Shown: positions 26,558-53,924 of the stretch, in pieces
How the letters are laid out: each line of letters starts with the position of its first letter
How positions within the stretch are numbered: position 1 is the stretch's first letter
NCBI RefSeq assembly: GCF_006874625.1
Contig: NZ_CP030034.1
Location: 186,001-250,000, forward strand
Origin: Bdellovibrio sp. NC01
GTDB lineage: Bacteria > Bdellovibrionota > Bdellovibrionia > Bdellovibrionales > Bdellovibrionaceae
Direction: 5' to 3'
Length of the DNA: 64,000 nt
Made by a program: the position numbers and the translations under genes
The notes under the pieces: generated by a model
The model's database searches: none
The model's input: the letters and a program-made list of their open reading frames with translations, nothing else
What the model was told of the DNA's origin: nothing

Positions 26558-28408
26558 TTAGCGTACGCCTTGTTGAGTTGTACCACTCGACGAAGGATTG
26601 CCGCCGGATGAATTGTTAAATTTTTGCGAGGAGCCGGTGCCACAGATGCCGCCTAGTTCTGGTTCGTTAGGCGAACGTTTCTTACATGATTGCCCAGCGA
26701 ATTTAGCTCCGGCCGAGTGTTGCGCTTCTGTCCATTTGAAATCGACGTCCCACGTAGCTAAACGTTGCGATGCTTTTTCGTAGCGGTCTTTGCCCCAGTC
26801 ATCGGGCTTCGATAAATTACCAAAGAATGATTCCGTCGGTTTGGTTAAATCAGCAGGGCCCCATACGCGAATGTCGGTGCAGGGTACGGTCTTACCAGCC
26901 ACTGTTTCGCCACCGATGTACCACTTATTGTAAAGCTCAGCAGCATCACCGTTGATCATGTGATTGTCCACTTTGTTTGCGATCTGTTCATCCGTCATAT
27001 CAAATTCATCTGACGTGATCATTTGCACCGGAATACTATGGCGAGAAAGAAACGCGCATTCTTTCGCAAGTTTATTTGCAAACTGTGGATCGAAATTATC
27101 GACGTCACAGTGAATTTTTCCCGAACGAATGTCTTTAACAATCGCCAAAGTTAATTGCTTTGGATCGTTGATTTTATATTTCAAAATTAAAGGCGCCATC
27201 GCTGACTTATAGTCTTTCATGTCACCAAGATATTCCTGATTCGAACCGCACATGCGAATACCGCGATACAAACGGGCTGCCTGGGTCTGAATAAGTTCCG
27301 CTTGTGAAGGGGAAATTCCATTTTGCACCAACTGACACGCCATAAAGGCTGCGCCGTAAACGTGATAGTACTTGCTAGGAATCTTTTTAGCTCCGCCAAT
27401 ATCACCTTGCACGCGCTGAATTTCATCTTTCACTGATTTTGGAATATCGGCCTTTAGACCCAATGATCCCGGCGTGTAAAAACCCGAAGCTGCCGACGGG
27501 CAGTTCATTTGTCTTTGCACGGACGAAGTATTCTGCAATTGAGAGATTTGCATATTCAGAACCGTCGAAGTCGACTTTGCAAACGCAATTTGGGTCGCGT
27601 TGGTATCAGGATGCGCTGACAATTCTTTGATCTCGTTATCGTAGAGTTTCTTTTGTTTTTTCAGTTCTGCACATTGCTCGCGAATTTCATCTAGAGCAGC
27701 GGGAGAGTTATCGTCCCACGAAAACTCTCCTTGAGCTGTATCGTCATGTCCACACATGCCAATTAAGAACATCGCCGAGTTCGGATCGTTCTTTGAGTGC
27801 TCCATCGCAAGCTTCCACAGCCAACCTGGTTCTAAATTTTTAAAACGATCTGCACCGACAGTCGCGTAAAGTCCCGCGCGATCAGGTTCTGCACACGATG
27901 TTGCTGTATCCGTCGTGGAAACTGATTTACCAGCGACAATCATATTGCCTGGTAATGGTTTGCAATTCGCATCTTGGGGGAGTTTTGCCTTCAAATACTT
28001 TTCAACATCGCGATAAAACGAAAGCGCAGCATCGCGTACACAAGAATTTTTCGGATCAGAAAACTTGCGCGAGAAAAATGCCGCAATACCAGCGTTGGTT
28101 GTGCCAACAGCATTGTCACCTTCGTAAGCGTCAGCACCCACGATATCAACGTACTGTTGTAAGCCACGTTTGGTGTCACCGTTAGGAAGATAATTAATAA
28201 TTCTTTGCGCGGCTTCGCCAGTGGAAGTTAGTGCAGACTTTCCGGCACCAACTTCGGTATTTGTTTGAAATGAATTTGGAATGGCAGCACAGGTAGGGCA
28301 TGAAGTATCTTGCATGACCGGCGAAACAGCCAATGCCTTTTCATCAGCAGCATGAAGCACGCTACTGCAAATCAGGATTATCAAGAAAGTGAAAGCTTTC
28401 GCCAGCAT
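26558..28408 (-). CDS. Large exported Cys-rich protein, unknown
   Basis: 616 residues. The start at 28408 gives a signal peptide ('LAKAFTFLIILICSSVLHA'). The mature protein contains about 17 cysteines, a C-P-T-C pair near the N terminus, a Lys/Glu-rich helical segment (about 235-285) and a Gly/Ser/Thr/Gln-rich tail. Proteins with this combination are usually periplasmic or surface located. No family recognised. Divergent from the small secreted gene at 28494. Confidence 0.65.
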   Translation of the reverse strand: MLAKAFTFLIILICSSVLHAADEKALAVSPVMQDTSCPTCAAIPNSFQTNTEVGAGKSALTSTGEAAQRIINYLPNGDTKRGLQQYVDIVGADAYEGDNAVGTTNAGIAAFFSRKFSDPKNSCVRDAALSFYRDVEKYLKAKLPQDANCKPLPGNMIVAGKSVSTTDTATSCAEPDRAGLYATVGADRFKNLEPGWLWKLAMEHSKNDPNSAMFLIGMCGHDDTAQGEFSWDDNSPAALDEIREQCAELKKQKKLYDNEIKELSAHPDTNATQIAFAKSTSTVLNMQISQLQNTSSVQRQMNCPSAASGFYTPGSLGLKADIPKSVKDEIQRVQGDIGGAKKIPSKYYHVYGAAFMACQLVQNGISPSQAELIQTQAARLYRGIRMCGSNQEYLGDMKDYKSAMAPLILKYKINDPKQLTLAIVKDIRSGKIHCDVDNFDPQFANKLAKECAFLSRHSIPVQMITSDEFDMTDEQIANKVDNHMINGDAAELYNKWYIGGETVAGKTVPCTDIRVWGPADLTKPTESFFGNLSKPDDWGKDRYEKASQRLATWDVDFKWTEAQHSAGAKFAGQSCKKRSPNEPELGGICGTGSSQKFNNSSGGNPSSSGTTQQGVR

Positions 28409-28493
28409 AGAGTACTTTTCGGAATACAAAGATCTGAAGTGAACTAGACCAAGATCTGTTTTGTTTACGCACCTAAGTTCCGAAAAGAAACCT

Positions 28494-28877
28494 ATGAAGT
28501 TTAAATCTTTGATCTGCATTTTAATTTTGTCAGCAATGCCTGCACACGGCTTTGATAAAGTTCTATGCGACTCAACGCTCGACGACTGGAGTGTTCACAA
28601 CGGCACAGGCAAAAAAAACCTGATCCTCAATAAACTTCAGAACTCCGCCTTCATGAGCAAAAAACAAAGCCAAATGCTCATAGTAAAAGATCGTAAAAAC
28701 CGCCAAATTGCCTCGGTCCTTCCATGGGACGGCATCACATTGCTACAATCCAAAACCGCAAAAAAAGAAAACTACAAATTCACCTACCAAAGCGACAACT
28801 ACAGTTGGTTCACTCTACAAATCGAATCCCCAGCCACAAAAGCAAAACACAACCTAAACTGCCGCCTAACGTTCTAA
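28494..28877 (+). CDS. Small exported protein, unknown
   Basis: 127 residues from the ATG at 28494: signal peptide ('KFKSLICILILSAMPAHG') followed by a basic, Asn/Lys/Gln-rich beta-type domain with two cysteines (near both ends, 'VLCDSTLDD' and 'LNCRLTF'). Its base composition is visibly richer in A and C than the neighbours', which may indicate separate origin. Confidence 0.6.
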   Translation: MKFKSLICILILSAMPAHGFDKVLCDSTLDDWSVHNGTGKKNLILNKLQNSAFMSKKQSQMLIVKDRKNRQIASVLPWDGITLLQSKTAKKENYKFTYQSDNYSWFTLQIESPATKAKHNLNCRLTF

Positions 28878-28937
28878 TCCCAAACGCAAAAAACATTCTG
28901 CATCGGGACCTCTCATCCTCTATTTCTCGAAGGCAAA

Positions 28938-29075
28938 TTTTCTGGATCTAAGATTTTAGGCGTTAGCGTATGAGGCCTTCGCGGGGCCTGGATGGCCCTC
29001 ACCGCAAAGCGGTGAAGCGACGAGGCAGGAGGCCGTGCCGAAGCAGCTAAGGCCTAAAATCTTAGAGCCAGAAAA
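28938..29075 (+). repeat. Long palindrome-armed repeat element, copy 1
   Basis: 138 bp between convergent gene ends. Left arm 28938-28967 and right arm 29046-29075 are inverted repeats of 30 nt with two mismatches. They enclose a 78-nt core (28968-29045) that is nearly identical to the inverse complement of the core of copy 2 (51429-51568). The core contains an internal hairpin ACCGC-AAA-GCGGT (29001-29013) that is replaced by a different but still paired hairpin in copy 2. The 320-base gap from 28878 to 29197 holds only this element and the hairpin at 29111. Confidence 0.9.
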
Positions 29076-29110
29076 CCCCGCACTACGATAAACCAAAAAA
29101 AATGAGAGCC

Positions 29111-50955: not shown

Positions 50956-51399
50956 ATGCTCCGACATTTGGCGATTCCAATCACGCTAATGGCTTTATTG
51001 ACGTCAGCCTGTCAGACTTCAATGGTAAAGCAATTCGAAGAAGTGAAGCCTGGGATGGAAAAGGCAGAAGTGCTGTCCATCATGGGTAGCCCCCAACAAA
51101 CTCGCCGTATTCATGGCAAGGACCGTTGGTTCTATAATTTCTATGAAAATAAAATCCGCTTTCAAAAAGAAATCCAATTCTTTGAGGGTAGCGCTGTTTA
51201 CGTAGGCGATATTTCGCAACCGGAAGTCGCGCAGACTGCGGCGGCTATCGACGCTAAGAATGCTAAAAAGAATCAAGAGATCGACGATCAAATCGCAGCG
51301 GATATCGAAAAACACAGACGCGATTATCAAAACTTTGAATCCCAATCCAAAGGCGAAGACAAAGTTCGCTACGTACCCGATTTCGAACCGATTCGTTAA
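50956..51399 (+). CDS. BamE/SmpA-like lipoprotein
   Basis: 147 residues: lipobox near 'LLTSACQ' (Cys19), then a SmpA/OmlA-type core ('VKPGMEKAEVLSIMGSPQQT', 'WFYNFYE') and a charged tail. BamE is an accessory lipoprotein of the outer-membrane barrel assembly complex. The tail (about 95-147) is longer than usual, so a BamE paralogue is more likely than the canonical subunit. Confidence 0.75.
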   Translation: MLRHLAIPITLMALLTSACQTSMVKQFEEVKPGMEKAEVLSIMGSPQQTRRIHGKDRWFYNFYENKIRFQKEIQFFEGSAVYVGDISQPEVAQTAAAIDAKNAKKNQEIDDQIAADIEKHRRDYQNFESQSKGEDKVRYVPDFEPIR

Positions 51400-51428
51400 T
51401 CTTCAACTAGGTCTGTCGTGATGCGGGG

Positions 51429-51568
51429 ATTTGCTAGAGCGTAGAATTTAGCTTTAGCTTCTTCGGCACGGCATCCTGCCTCGTCGCTTCGACGCCGTTG
51501 GCGTCGAGGGCCATCCAGGCCCCGCGAAGGCCTCATACGCAAAAGCTAAATTCTACGCTCTAGCAAAT
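51429..51568 (-). repeat. Long palindrome-armed repeat element, copy 2
   Basis: 140 bp between convergent gene ends (51399 and 51664). Arms 51429-51458 and 51539-51568 form a 30-nt inverted repeat with one mismatch. The core 51459-51538, read on the minus strand, matches copy 1 at all but the internal hairpin (GACGCC-AAC-GGCGTC here) and two single bases. The arms are unrelated in sequence to those of copy 1, apart from the inner TTAGC/GCTAA edge. Confidence 0.9.
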
Positions 51569-51663
51569 TATGCCTTCGACTGATCTATTTAAATTTACGA
51601 ATGGATTAGAGAGTGGGGCGTAGTGAATTTGTTGGTGTGGGGTGGTTGGTTGGTGCTTTGGGG

Positions 51664-52266
51664 TTAGCGGATTTCTTCGATGGCGATTGTTTGGCCCAGG
51701 ACGGATTTGATTTCGTTGGCGTCGACTTCTAAGTAGTCTTGCTTGTTGTTGTCGCTGACTAATTTTACGTCTGTGATTTTTAGGTTTTCGCGGCCTTCGA
51801 AATTGATTACTGAGGCTTCGATATGGTTTTGGTCGTCGCTGATATTGCAGGGGCTTTCGATGACTTTTAAGCCCTTGTCGGATTTCACTGTCACTTGGAT
51901 GTTTGAGAATCTATCGCACACGAAAACTTTTGTACCGCTTTCGTTTTTTACATAGAACAATCCCAACGACAAATTGATTGAGTCTTTGAATCTTGTCGCG
52001 TGGACGTCGCGCAGAAGTTGATATTTGAAAGCTTTCTTAAGTTCTTCGGTATTTAGTTCAGAAAGATCTTGTGAATCGACGTCGATGATTGGTAGTTGCA
52101 CGTTTTCTTCGCTGACTGAAGCGATGCCACGAGCTTGTTGAACATTCATCGCGATGGAATTTTTCTTAAAAGCAGAAATGGAGAAAACGGCGATTGGTGT
52201 CACAATCAGAATGGCTACGATGGTTCGTAACTGCCATGAAAGTTTGAGCTTTCTCGTGCTCGACAT
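51664..52266 (-). CDS. Single-pass membrane protein, periplasmic domain, unknown
   Basis: 200 residues: membrane helix (about 15-34) then a beta-rich periplasmic domain with Cys pair ('VFVCDRFSNIQVTV', 'VIESPCNISDD'). No signature recognised. GGAGGAG just before the ATG at 52266 (GTG at 52278 also possible). Confidence 0.6.
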   Translation of the reverse strand: MSSTRKLKLSWQLRTIVAILIVTPIAVFSISAFKKNSIAMNVQQARGIASVSEENVQLPIIDVDSQDLSELNTEELKKAFKYQLLRDVHATRFKDSINLSLGLFYVKNESGTKVFVCDRFSNIQVTVKSDKGLKVIESPCNISDDQNHIEASVINFEGRENLKITDVKLVSDNNKQDYLEVDANEIKSVLGQTIAIEEIR

Positions 52267-52364
52267 CAACTCCTCCACTCTTATAAGTTTAGCTTAAGTA
52301 AGGGAGTTACGCGAAAAAAACTCAGGGAATCCTGGACGAAAGTTTCGGAATGTCTCGTTTTAAA

Positions 52365-52393
52365 ACAAAGGGCCTCGCTTACGCGAAGCCCTT
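52365..52393 (-). terminator. Terminator of the acyl-CoA ligase operon
   Basis: AAGGGC-C-TCGC-TTAC-GCGA-A-GCCCTT, minus strand followed by TGTTTTAAAA. Confidence 0.7.
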
Positions 52394-52424
52394 ATTTAAT
52401 GAATCTTTACAGAGGGGAAATTGG

Positions 52425-53924
52425 TTATACGTACTCTTGAAGTTTGCGCTTCAAGATTTTTCCGCTGTCACCTTTTGGAAGTGCGTCTAAGAAAATGAAG
52501 TGCTTAGGAATTTTGAACTTCGCCAAATTCTTTAAGCAGTGATTCATCACTTGGTTTAATTCCAATTCTTCTTTTTTAACGATGAAGGCTTTACCGACCT
52601 CACCCCATTTTTCATCTGGAACGCCGATAACGGCCACTTCCAAAATGCCTGGGCAAGTACGTAAAACTTGTTCAAGCTCAACCGGGTAAACGTTTTCGCC
52701 GCCAGAGATGAACATCTCTTTTTTGCGACCGACAACGTAGTAATAACCTTCAGCATCGCGACGAACAAGATCGCCTGTGTACAACCAGCCGTCACGAATC
52801 GTTTCTTTCGTGGCTTTTTCGTTGTGCCAGTAACCTTGCATGCATGCGGGGCCTTTTAAGATCAATTCGCCGATTTGTTCAGCGCCCAGTTCGCGACCTT
52901 CATTGTCGACAACTTTCGCTTCGACATAAAAGTTTGGAAAACCAATCGAACCAATTTTTCTTAAAGCGTCTTCTTCGTTTAAAGAAAATACCGAAGGACC
53001 GAATTCAGTCAGGCCGTAGCCTTGACGAACTGGAATGCCTTTCGCGTCCCAAACTTTGATCAGTTCAAGCGGCATCGGTTCGCCACCAACGATCGCATAA
53101 CGAACAGACGACAAATCACACTTCGTAAACAAAGGCGATTTCGTCATCATATCCATTGTCGTAGGAACGCCGAACATCACTGTCGCTTTTTCTTTTTCAG
53201 ACAAAGCAAGAATTTGATCTGCATCGAATTTTTTTAAGATCACAACTTTCGCGCCACGGTGAAGGAATGGATTTGTTAAAACATTCCAGCCGCCCGTGTG
53301 GAAGAACGGCAAGAAACTGACTGTGACGTCGTTCTGTGACACGTTCAAACGGAAAGAGGTATTGATCGAATTCCAGAAAATCATTTTGTGTGTCAGGACC
53401 GCGCCCTTAGGAGAGCCCGTTGTACCTGACGTGTACAGAATCATGGCTGGATCAAGCTCTTCAGGGACAAACGGATAAACTTCAGCAGAAGCTTTCAAAA
53501 TATTTTCTGCAAAGCTGTTTGCACCTTGCAGAAGCAATCGCTCTGCACGAACCGCGACCGGAAGATTTTCGATGATTGAACCGAAAACTTCTTGGTGAAT
53601 AACTAATTTCGGAGCGGAATCCGTGATGATGTGATCCACCTCACGTTGAGTAAGGCGGAAGTTCACTGGAACCATGATCGCGCCAAGTCTTTGCAATGCA
53701 AAGAACAGTGTCACGTACTCAAGTTCATTTGTTGCTAGCACCGCAACGCGATCGCCTTTGCTGATGCCGAATTGCCCGCGAAGATAGTTGGCACCACGAT
53801 TAGCCAGCTCGTAAAGCTTTGCATATGACAGTTCCTGCCCAGTTTCGCCATCTTTGATAGCGATCTTACCAGGTGAATACAGGTTCCATCTTTTTAGCCA
53901 ATCGAGTTCCATATTAGGTGTCAT
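52425..53924 (-). CDS. AMP-dependent acyl-CoA synthetase/ligase
   Basis: 499 residues, ANL superfamily. P-loop 'ILYTSGTTGSPKGAV' (about 157-171), 'YGLTEFGPSVFSL', 'YTGDLVRRDAEGYYYVVGRK' and C-terminal 'KGDSGKILKRKLQE' with the catalytic Lys. Activates a fatty or related acid to acyl-AMP and then CoA ester. Start is ambiguous (53924 or 53912) because it overlaps the upstream gene stop. Co-transcribed with the KAS III homologue. Confidence 0.9.
   Translation of the reverse strand: MTPNMELDWLKRWNLYSPGKIAIKDGETGQELSYAKLYELANRGANYLRGQFGISKGDRVAVLATNELEYVTLFFALQRLGAIMVPVNFRLTQREVDHIITDSAPKLVIHQEVFGSIIENLPVAVRAERLLLQGANSFAENILKASAEVYPFVPEELDPAMILYTSGTTGSPKGAVLTHKMIFWNSINTSFRLNVSQNDVTVSFLPFFHTGGWNVLTNPFLHRGAKVVILKKFDADQILALSEKEKATVMFGVPTTMDMMTKSPLFTKCDLSSVRYAIVGGEPMPLELIKVWDAKGIPVRQGYGLTEFGPSVFSLNEEDALRKIGSIGFPNFYVEAKVVDNEGRELGAEQIGELILKGPACMQGYWHNEKATKETIRDGWLYTGDLVRRDAEGYYYVVGRKKEMFISGGENVYPVELEQVLRTCPGILEVAVIGVPDEKWGEVGKAFIVKKEELELNQVMNHCLKNLAKFKIPKHFIFLDALPKGDSGKILKRKLQEYV

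Follow-up and report, generated by a model that had tools for sequence, protein, structure and literature searches.

Palindromic repeats of bacterial chromosomes are usually viewed as passive debris or as targets of gyrase or transposase. REP/BIME/REPIN elements, which go together with RAYT (TnpA-REP), are dispersed intergenic palindromes that are recognised on one strand and occur singly or as inverted pairs; a REP is a hairpin of 20-40 nt with a 5' GTAG-type tetranucleotide. ERIC and NEMIS/Correia elements are 100-160 bp long and intergenic, fold over their full length, avoid promoters, and are conserved in sequence throughout. At the attC sites of integrons, the structure of the folded strand outweighs its sequence. 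Csr/Rsm-type RNAs carry hairpins with GGA loops. In animal mitochondrial DNA, asymmetric single-stranding raises A and C and lowers G and T on one strand, in a gradient from a start point.

Here we analysed an element that occurs twice in a 64-kb stretch of DNA (hereafter the window) from Bdellovibrio sp. NC01. Like REP/BIME/REPIN elements, it is a dispersed intergenic palindrome, single or in inverted pairs, in which one strand is the object of recognition. Its length of ~160 nt, its several helices and its ~30-bp arms without fixed sequence set it apart from them; it is a 160-nt nested structure in which no GTAG-type foot was recognised. It shares size, intergenic position, folding over the full length and avoidance of promoters with ERIC and NEMIS/Correia, but its arms covary and have no fixed sequence. 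As in attC, the structure of the folded strand outweighs sequence, whereas the arms are fully complementary, the elements are not placed between gene cassettes, and inspection by eye showed neither attC core sites nor an integron.

Results

Both copies that had been predicted in the window were found at 28938-29075 and 51429-51568, on opposite strands and, as predicted, between convergent gene ends. The whole element spans 28927..29088 (+ strand) in copy 1, with the borders TCGAAGGCAAA ... CCCCGCACTACGA, which are kept in most copies of this genome, and 51416..51579 (- strand) in copy 2, with the borders TCGAAGGCA ... CCCCGCATCACGA. The layout over ~160 nt is TCGAAGGCAAA, a 30-nt 5' arm, a core of ~80 nt, a 30-nt 3' arm and CCCCGCACTACGA, and the conserved borders outside the arms are TCGAAGGCAAA and CCCCGCAC(T)ACGA. 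The full element is longer than the ~140 bp of the original prediction, as the conserved borders lie beyond the arms. In copy 1 (all parts on the + strand), the 5' arm of stem P1 (30 nt) lies at 28938..28967 and the 3' arm at 29046..29075, a stem supported by covariation. The conserved core between them (28968..29045; P2, P3, P4, P5 and P6) contains the P4 hairpin GGGCC-TGGAT-GGCCC (28984-28998), the variable hairpin P5 (28999-29015) and the P6 hairpin GGC-AGGAG-GCC (29024-29034). In copy 2 (- strand), the 5' arm lies at 51539..51568, the core at 51459..51538 and the 3' arm at 51429..51458. The two cores begin with ~35 identical nucleotides, followed by the variable hairpin and ~34 nt with two differences, in agreement with the predicted shared core, and the 30-nt arms of both copies pair almost perfectly. 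That the arms are unrelated between copies is mostly right, except at the arm ends, where TTTGC...TTTGC is semi-conserved. The fold z-scores are -6.5 for copy 1 and -7.6 for copy 2, and no shuffled sequence was equally stable. At the inspected loci with convergent genes, an apparent outer stem beyond the borders consists of a terminator's T-run opposite the A-run of the facing terminator, and we left it out of the element.

Further copies were searched for with a covariance model (R1) built from ten copies. At E < 1e-6, the 3.976-Mb single contig of the own genome contains 26 copies. The model also showed that 22 of 24 Bdellovibrio genomes carry the family, with 3 to 31 copies each (12 in B. 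bacteriovorus HD100), and a few more distant genomes match as well. In HD100, a c-di-GMP-I riboswitch lies within the coordinates published for merRNA, in agreement with this assignment of the genome. The arms were complementary in all further copies examined. One hit (L014) was discarded as a chance match. In the own chromosome, the first half of the contig (0.07-1.6 Mb) contains 20 of the 26 copies, while the distribution in G015 and G017, two closely related species, looks more even. Three draft genomes from another family of the phylum (G342, G343 and G345) have 3-8 copies; in G343 and G345 the arms are 30-40 bp long, almost perfectly paired and unrelated in sequence. These copies could reflect horizontal transfer, deep ancestry or misbinned contigs. 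Rfam gave only a tRNA in the window, nothing at the element and no match to copy 1 up to E 10, and the family had no match in collections of phages, plasmids and viral contigs. We found no described Bdellovibrio repeat family of this kind in the literature covered, which mostly excludes subscription papers. The absence of a named family, already presumed from the two copies, thus holds in Rfam and in this literature, and the family is very likely new.

Pairing is kept in this family while sequence is replaced. In an alignment of 79 distinct copies, standard pairs make up 95.3% of the pair cells (62% in shuffles), two-sided compensatory cells number 659 (190 +/- 13 in shuffles) and the covariation score is 0.79 (0.17 in shuffles). 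In P1, all 16 modelled arm pairs vary on both sides, 15 of the 16 occur as all four Watson-Crick types, and the covariation collapses in slid controls. The alignment was fitted to a model of the same structure, and stem counts on raw sequences agree with it. Covariation thus exceeds both shuffles and slid controls, as is asked of a structured RNA. Comparison of G015 and G017 led to the same result. At the 24 element loci that they have in common, arms range from identical to nearly all replaced but are paired in every case, and 78 double Watson-Crick changes (32 of them transversions) stand against 22 one-sided G.U changes. Some loci are common to distant species (own genome, G015/G017, G016 and G023). 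The idea that lost sequence with preserved pairing marks a selected structure is therefore borne out by covariation, by turnover at orthologous loci and by the strand-specific tolerance of mismatches described below. The family is old and largely vertically inherited, and its core-bearing strand must fold (P1 of 30 bp plus the core P2-P6). In addition, two pairs of copies (L050/L066 and L049/L059) have identical cores, including the variable hairpin, yet unrelated arms, which suggests that the cores undergo homogenisation or copying without their arms.

The two conserved hairpins, P4 and P6, carry [C/G]GA loops. The P6 loop is mostly NGGAN and the P4 loop mostly ACGAT, as compared with ANGGA of Csr/Rsm RNA. 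These loops can be interrupted. In G015, a double-hairpin insert of ~65-75 nt, CAAAAATAGCA...TGCTATTTTTG...GGGCAGGAGCCC, is found in two elements (L243 10000-10480 and L244 9850-10370), once in the P4 loop and once in the P6 loop, each time directly after 'GGA', and appears to be a second, REP-like element inserting into hairpin loops. One copy of the own genome (L068, 2549030-2549171) has an additional hairpin in the P4 loop, whose sequence is unlike the G015 inserts.

A cruciform working on both strands would give equal numbers of mismatches on each. In an alignment with symmetric scoring, mismatches in the 30-bp stem, read on the core-bearing strand, were G.U 95 times and A.C 15 times, and G.A 206 times and C.U 6 times. 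Elements with an antisense upstream gene showed the same asymmetry (26:4 and 54:2). Because the counts are biased to one strand, the functional object is a single folded strand, the core-bearing one, as RNA or ssDNA, and not a symmetric cruciform. The cruciform proposed in the original prediction is accordingly disfavoured, as G.U and G.A are tolerated on one strand only. This preference for G.U over A.C is that of a structured RNA, and ssDNA is also compatible with it.

The original prediction described the element correctly but did not include a one-sided gradient of strand composition beside it. On the + strand 5' of the element, A and C are enriched and G and T depleted. Within 400 nt on this side, A+C at third codon positions is 0.73 in same-orientation genes and 0.69 in antisense genes, versus 0.48-0.50 on the 3' side. 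The excess declines almost linearly and reaches zero at about 1.1-1.2 kb, while the 3' side has none; this gradient is seen in the own genome, in G015/G017 and in the pooled other genomes. The 5' side is richer in A+C at 114 of 121 loci (p about 1e-20, the loci being not all independent), and the footprint is equal in size whichever way the 5' or 3' genes point. Both copies in the window show it. The footprint of copy 1 covers 27930..28926 (+), with A+C 0.62 overall and 0.71 at third codon positions, and that of copy 2 covers 51580..52580, A/C-rich on the - strand, the outer limits 27930 and 52580 being family averages and not values of these copies. Among 500-nt windows, the ten highest in A+C all start at 28301-28751, 5' of copy 1, and 8 of the 12 lowest, among them the five lowest, start at 51351-51701, at and 5' of the opposite-strand copy 2. 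No sequence motif beyond composition and codon constraint was found in the footprint. For the + strand of the 5' flank, less structure is predicted than for its complement.

The gene 5' of copy 2 (51664-52278) has a third-position A+C of 0.71-0.73, whereas its orthologues in 20 genomes, with no element within the fetched flanks, have 0.44-0.56. Loci whose element is missing from the sister species show weak bias, about 0.52 versus about 0.60 for all loci; at several of them the sister keeps a relic from which the core and one arm are gone, as in the loss of palindromes. In L053, a copy of the own genome, the element is intact and the bias absent (0.418); this copy is perhaps a young insertion. 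From the orthologue, sister-species and L053 data, we conclude that the bias goes with long residence of the element and not with the genes or the target. An insertion preference for A/C-rich DNA is disfavoured, as lineage-specific loci have little bias and element-free orthologues none. An effect of the replication strand was rejected because both directions gave nearly the same value (0.590 and 0.595, with the origin assumed at base 1). Leftward transcription of the 3'-side gene was rejected as the source, since a gene that points away goes with an equal bias. The directional footprint is an association with strong controls, and it suggests a strand-specific nucleic-acid process starting at the element. 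Separately, in L060/L062 (own genome 588959-589476) and similar inverted pairs, overlap of the two 5' flanks cancels the bias (A+C 0.52 and 0.48).

We also compared fourfold sites between G015 and G017. In the first 600 nt upstream, their composition is about A 0.39, C 0.38, G 0.11 and T 0.12. A-C differences are about 2.7-fold more frequent upstream than downstream, but transitions show no clear rise next to the element. Plain hypermutation is disfavoured, since the pattern is better explained by fixation biased against G and T or by weak selection against them; the comparison is not decisive, as genes and their orientations differ between the two sides and the normalisation is imperfect.

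Elements are rare at gene 5' ends. They lie at gene 3' ends, several adjoining terminators, and often between convergent genes. Where the neighbouring genes are co-directional, orientation of the element is random (27 versus 26), which excludes a cis-acting element of mRNAs. Inverted pairs with facing 5' ends are common, mostly spaced by 100-600 bp, and no transposase ORF was seen between them (two pairs examined by ORF lists, others by reading the sequence), so an autonomous or composite transposon was rejected. No nuclease, transposase or polymerase was linked to the element. The suggested small mobile palindromic element is only partly supported: it agrees with the turnover of some loci, but not with the vertical stability of many others, with losses that at several loci are palindrome deletions, or with the unlinked transposase.

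Discussion

The element is real and selected, and its family is apparently undescribed. As for mechanism, we infer either a DNA-processing site or a structured RNA. We tentatively favour the former, with the chances still somewhat against it: the element may be a strand-specific processing or entry site on DNA, from which an activity leaves in the 5' direction. The + strand would be folded, or recognised when folded, and then nicked or loaded, and the activity would travel from the element over as much as about 1 kb towards the 5' side, for instance by digesting the + strand 3'-to-5' and then refilling the gap, or by repeated strand exchange. Repeated action would bias base fixation and leave the one-sided gradient. 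The arms would need pairing alone, and could drift by compensatory change or by hairpin-templated copying. This reading is favoured over a structured RNA that requires an unstructured upstream, but it is not proven against it, as G.T and G.A mismatches are tolerated by RNA and ssDNA alike. Under the RNA alternative, which we consider doubtful, the elements are genes of structured ncRNAs: the + strand is transcribed, a core with GGA/CGA loops binds a protein, and a G/U-poor upstream RNA is selected. The upstream RNA, made earlier, must not invade the fold, and this would produce, with the same doubt, both the one-sidedness and the decay with distance. The strand-specific tolerance of G.U and G.A with purine-rich mismatches, the conserved hairpin loops, substitutions that resemble hypermutation less than they do weak selection against G and T, and the lower predicted structure of the 5' flank all suit such genes. 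They are harder to reconcile with the lack of a conserved promoter upstream of the element and of an Rfam match, and with random orientation, by which the ~1 kb of upstream + RNA would often be antisense. In addition, the only published small RNA of HD100 that overlaps an element, APsRNA6 (PMC3627812), crosses it on the antisense strand. The APsRNA6 locus (L250, HD100 1338787-1339441, +) has a 92-codon ORF near its 5' end, and APsRNA6 may be an mRNA rather than an sRNA.

A miniature REP/BIME-like element that a Y1/HUH (RAYT-like) transposase moves as ssDNA, with the footprint as the trace of its repeated nicks, is improbable. Dispersed intergenic positions, avoidance of gene 5' ends, frequent inverted pairs and turnover of some loci agree with it, recognition of an ssDNA hairpin would account for strand-specific folding, and Y1_Tnp genes occur in 21 of 24 genomes. 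Nevertheless, three element-bearing genomes lack Y1_Tnp (G004, with 14 copies, G014 and G016) and the footprint is also found in such genomes, albeit at the few loci read; copy number does not follow Y1_Tnp, no element was found around 10 Y1_Tnp loci, the element is about 5 times as long as a REP, and many loci are vertically stable. One Y1_Tnp (RAYT-like) gene of the own genome (1181412-1181753, -) lies 1.8 kb from a copy (L063), a linkage that other checked Y1_Tnp loci do not show. Lower still we place a zone of Rho-dependent (C>G, rut-like) termination followed by an RNA structure protecting the 3' end. A C-rich, G-poor upstream + strand and elements at gene 3' ends, several beside terminators, would fit; yet the bias reaches ~1.1 kb into translated ORFs, antisense genes included, T is lost as much as G, orientation to transcription is not fixed (27 versus 26 in co-directional contexts), and the 3' ends of facing genes have no such bias. 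Error-prone reverse transcription or targeted, DGR-like diversification of the upstream gene is hardly credible and was dropped. Its polarity and the G>A and T>C direction suit copying of the + strand from the element upstream. But at the level of RVT_1, the reverse transcriptase expected with retrons, DGRs and group II introns is absent from the complete own genome and from most element-bearing genomes, the upstream genes are mixed and include housekeeping ones (rsmG-like and murA-like, assigned by eye), and transitions are not clearly raised.

Put more generally, the family may be a new kind of chromosomal site, an idea for which we hold a guarded hope short of an even chance: a folded strand-specific element would recruit an enzyme that works in one direction along as much as ~1 kb of adjacent DNA and, over evolutionary time, changes or constrains its composition. 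The DNA-processing reading would, if true, give bacteria a directional system of DNA processing that is locus-specific and has dozens of sites in each genome. Presence of the element predicts base composition of the neighbouring kilobase on one side only, and the family keeps its structure over long evolutionary times despite sequence turnover. This means that a predatory bacterium has either an undescribed system of DNA processing or recombination, or a structured RNA constraining synonymous sites across a kilobase. Either would be new and can be tested in B. bacteriovorus HD100, which is genetically tractable. It is also a warning that neither expression level nor horizontal transfer need lie behind a local anomaly of codon usage, which a neighbouring element can cause.

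Besides length and layout, further features separate the element from the described systems. Its loops carry GGA in many copies, as in Csr/Rsm RNAs, but the first loop is CGA in many copies. Unlike in REP/RAYT systems, Y1_Tnp is unlinked and the 3-31 copies per genome are in many cases vertically stable. The element is also flanked by a one-sided base bias of 1 kb, and we know of no report of such a bias beside REP/BIME/REPIN elements. The footprint resembles the mitochondrial gradient in being graded at silent sites and in affecting genes of both orientations. It differs in that it is local (1 kb), is defined by an element at dozens of chromosomal sites, and comes with a transition rate that is not clearly raised.
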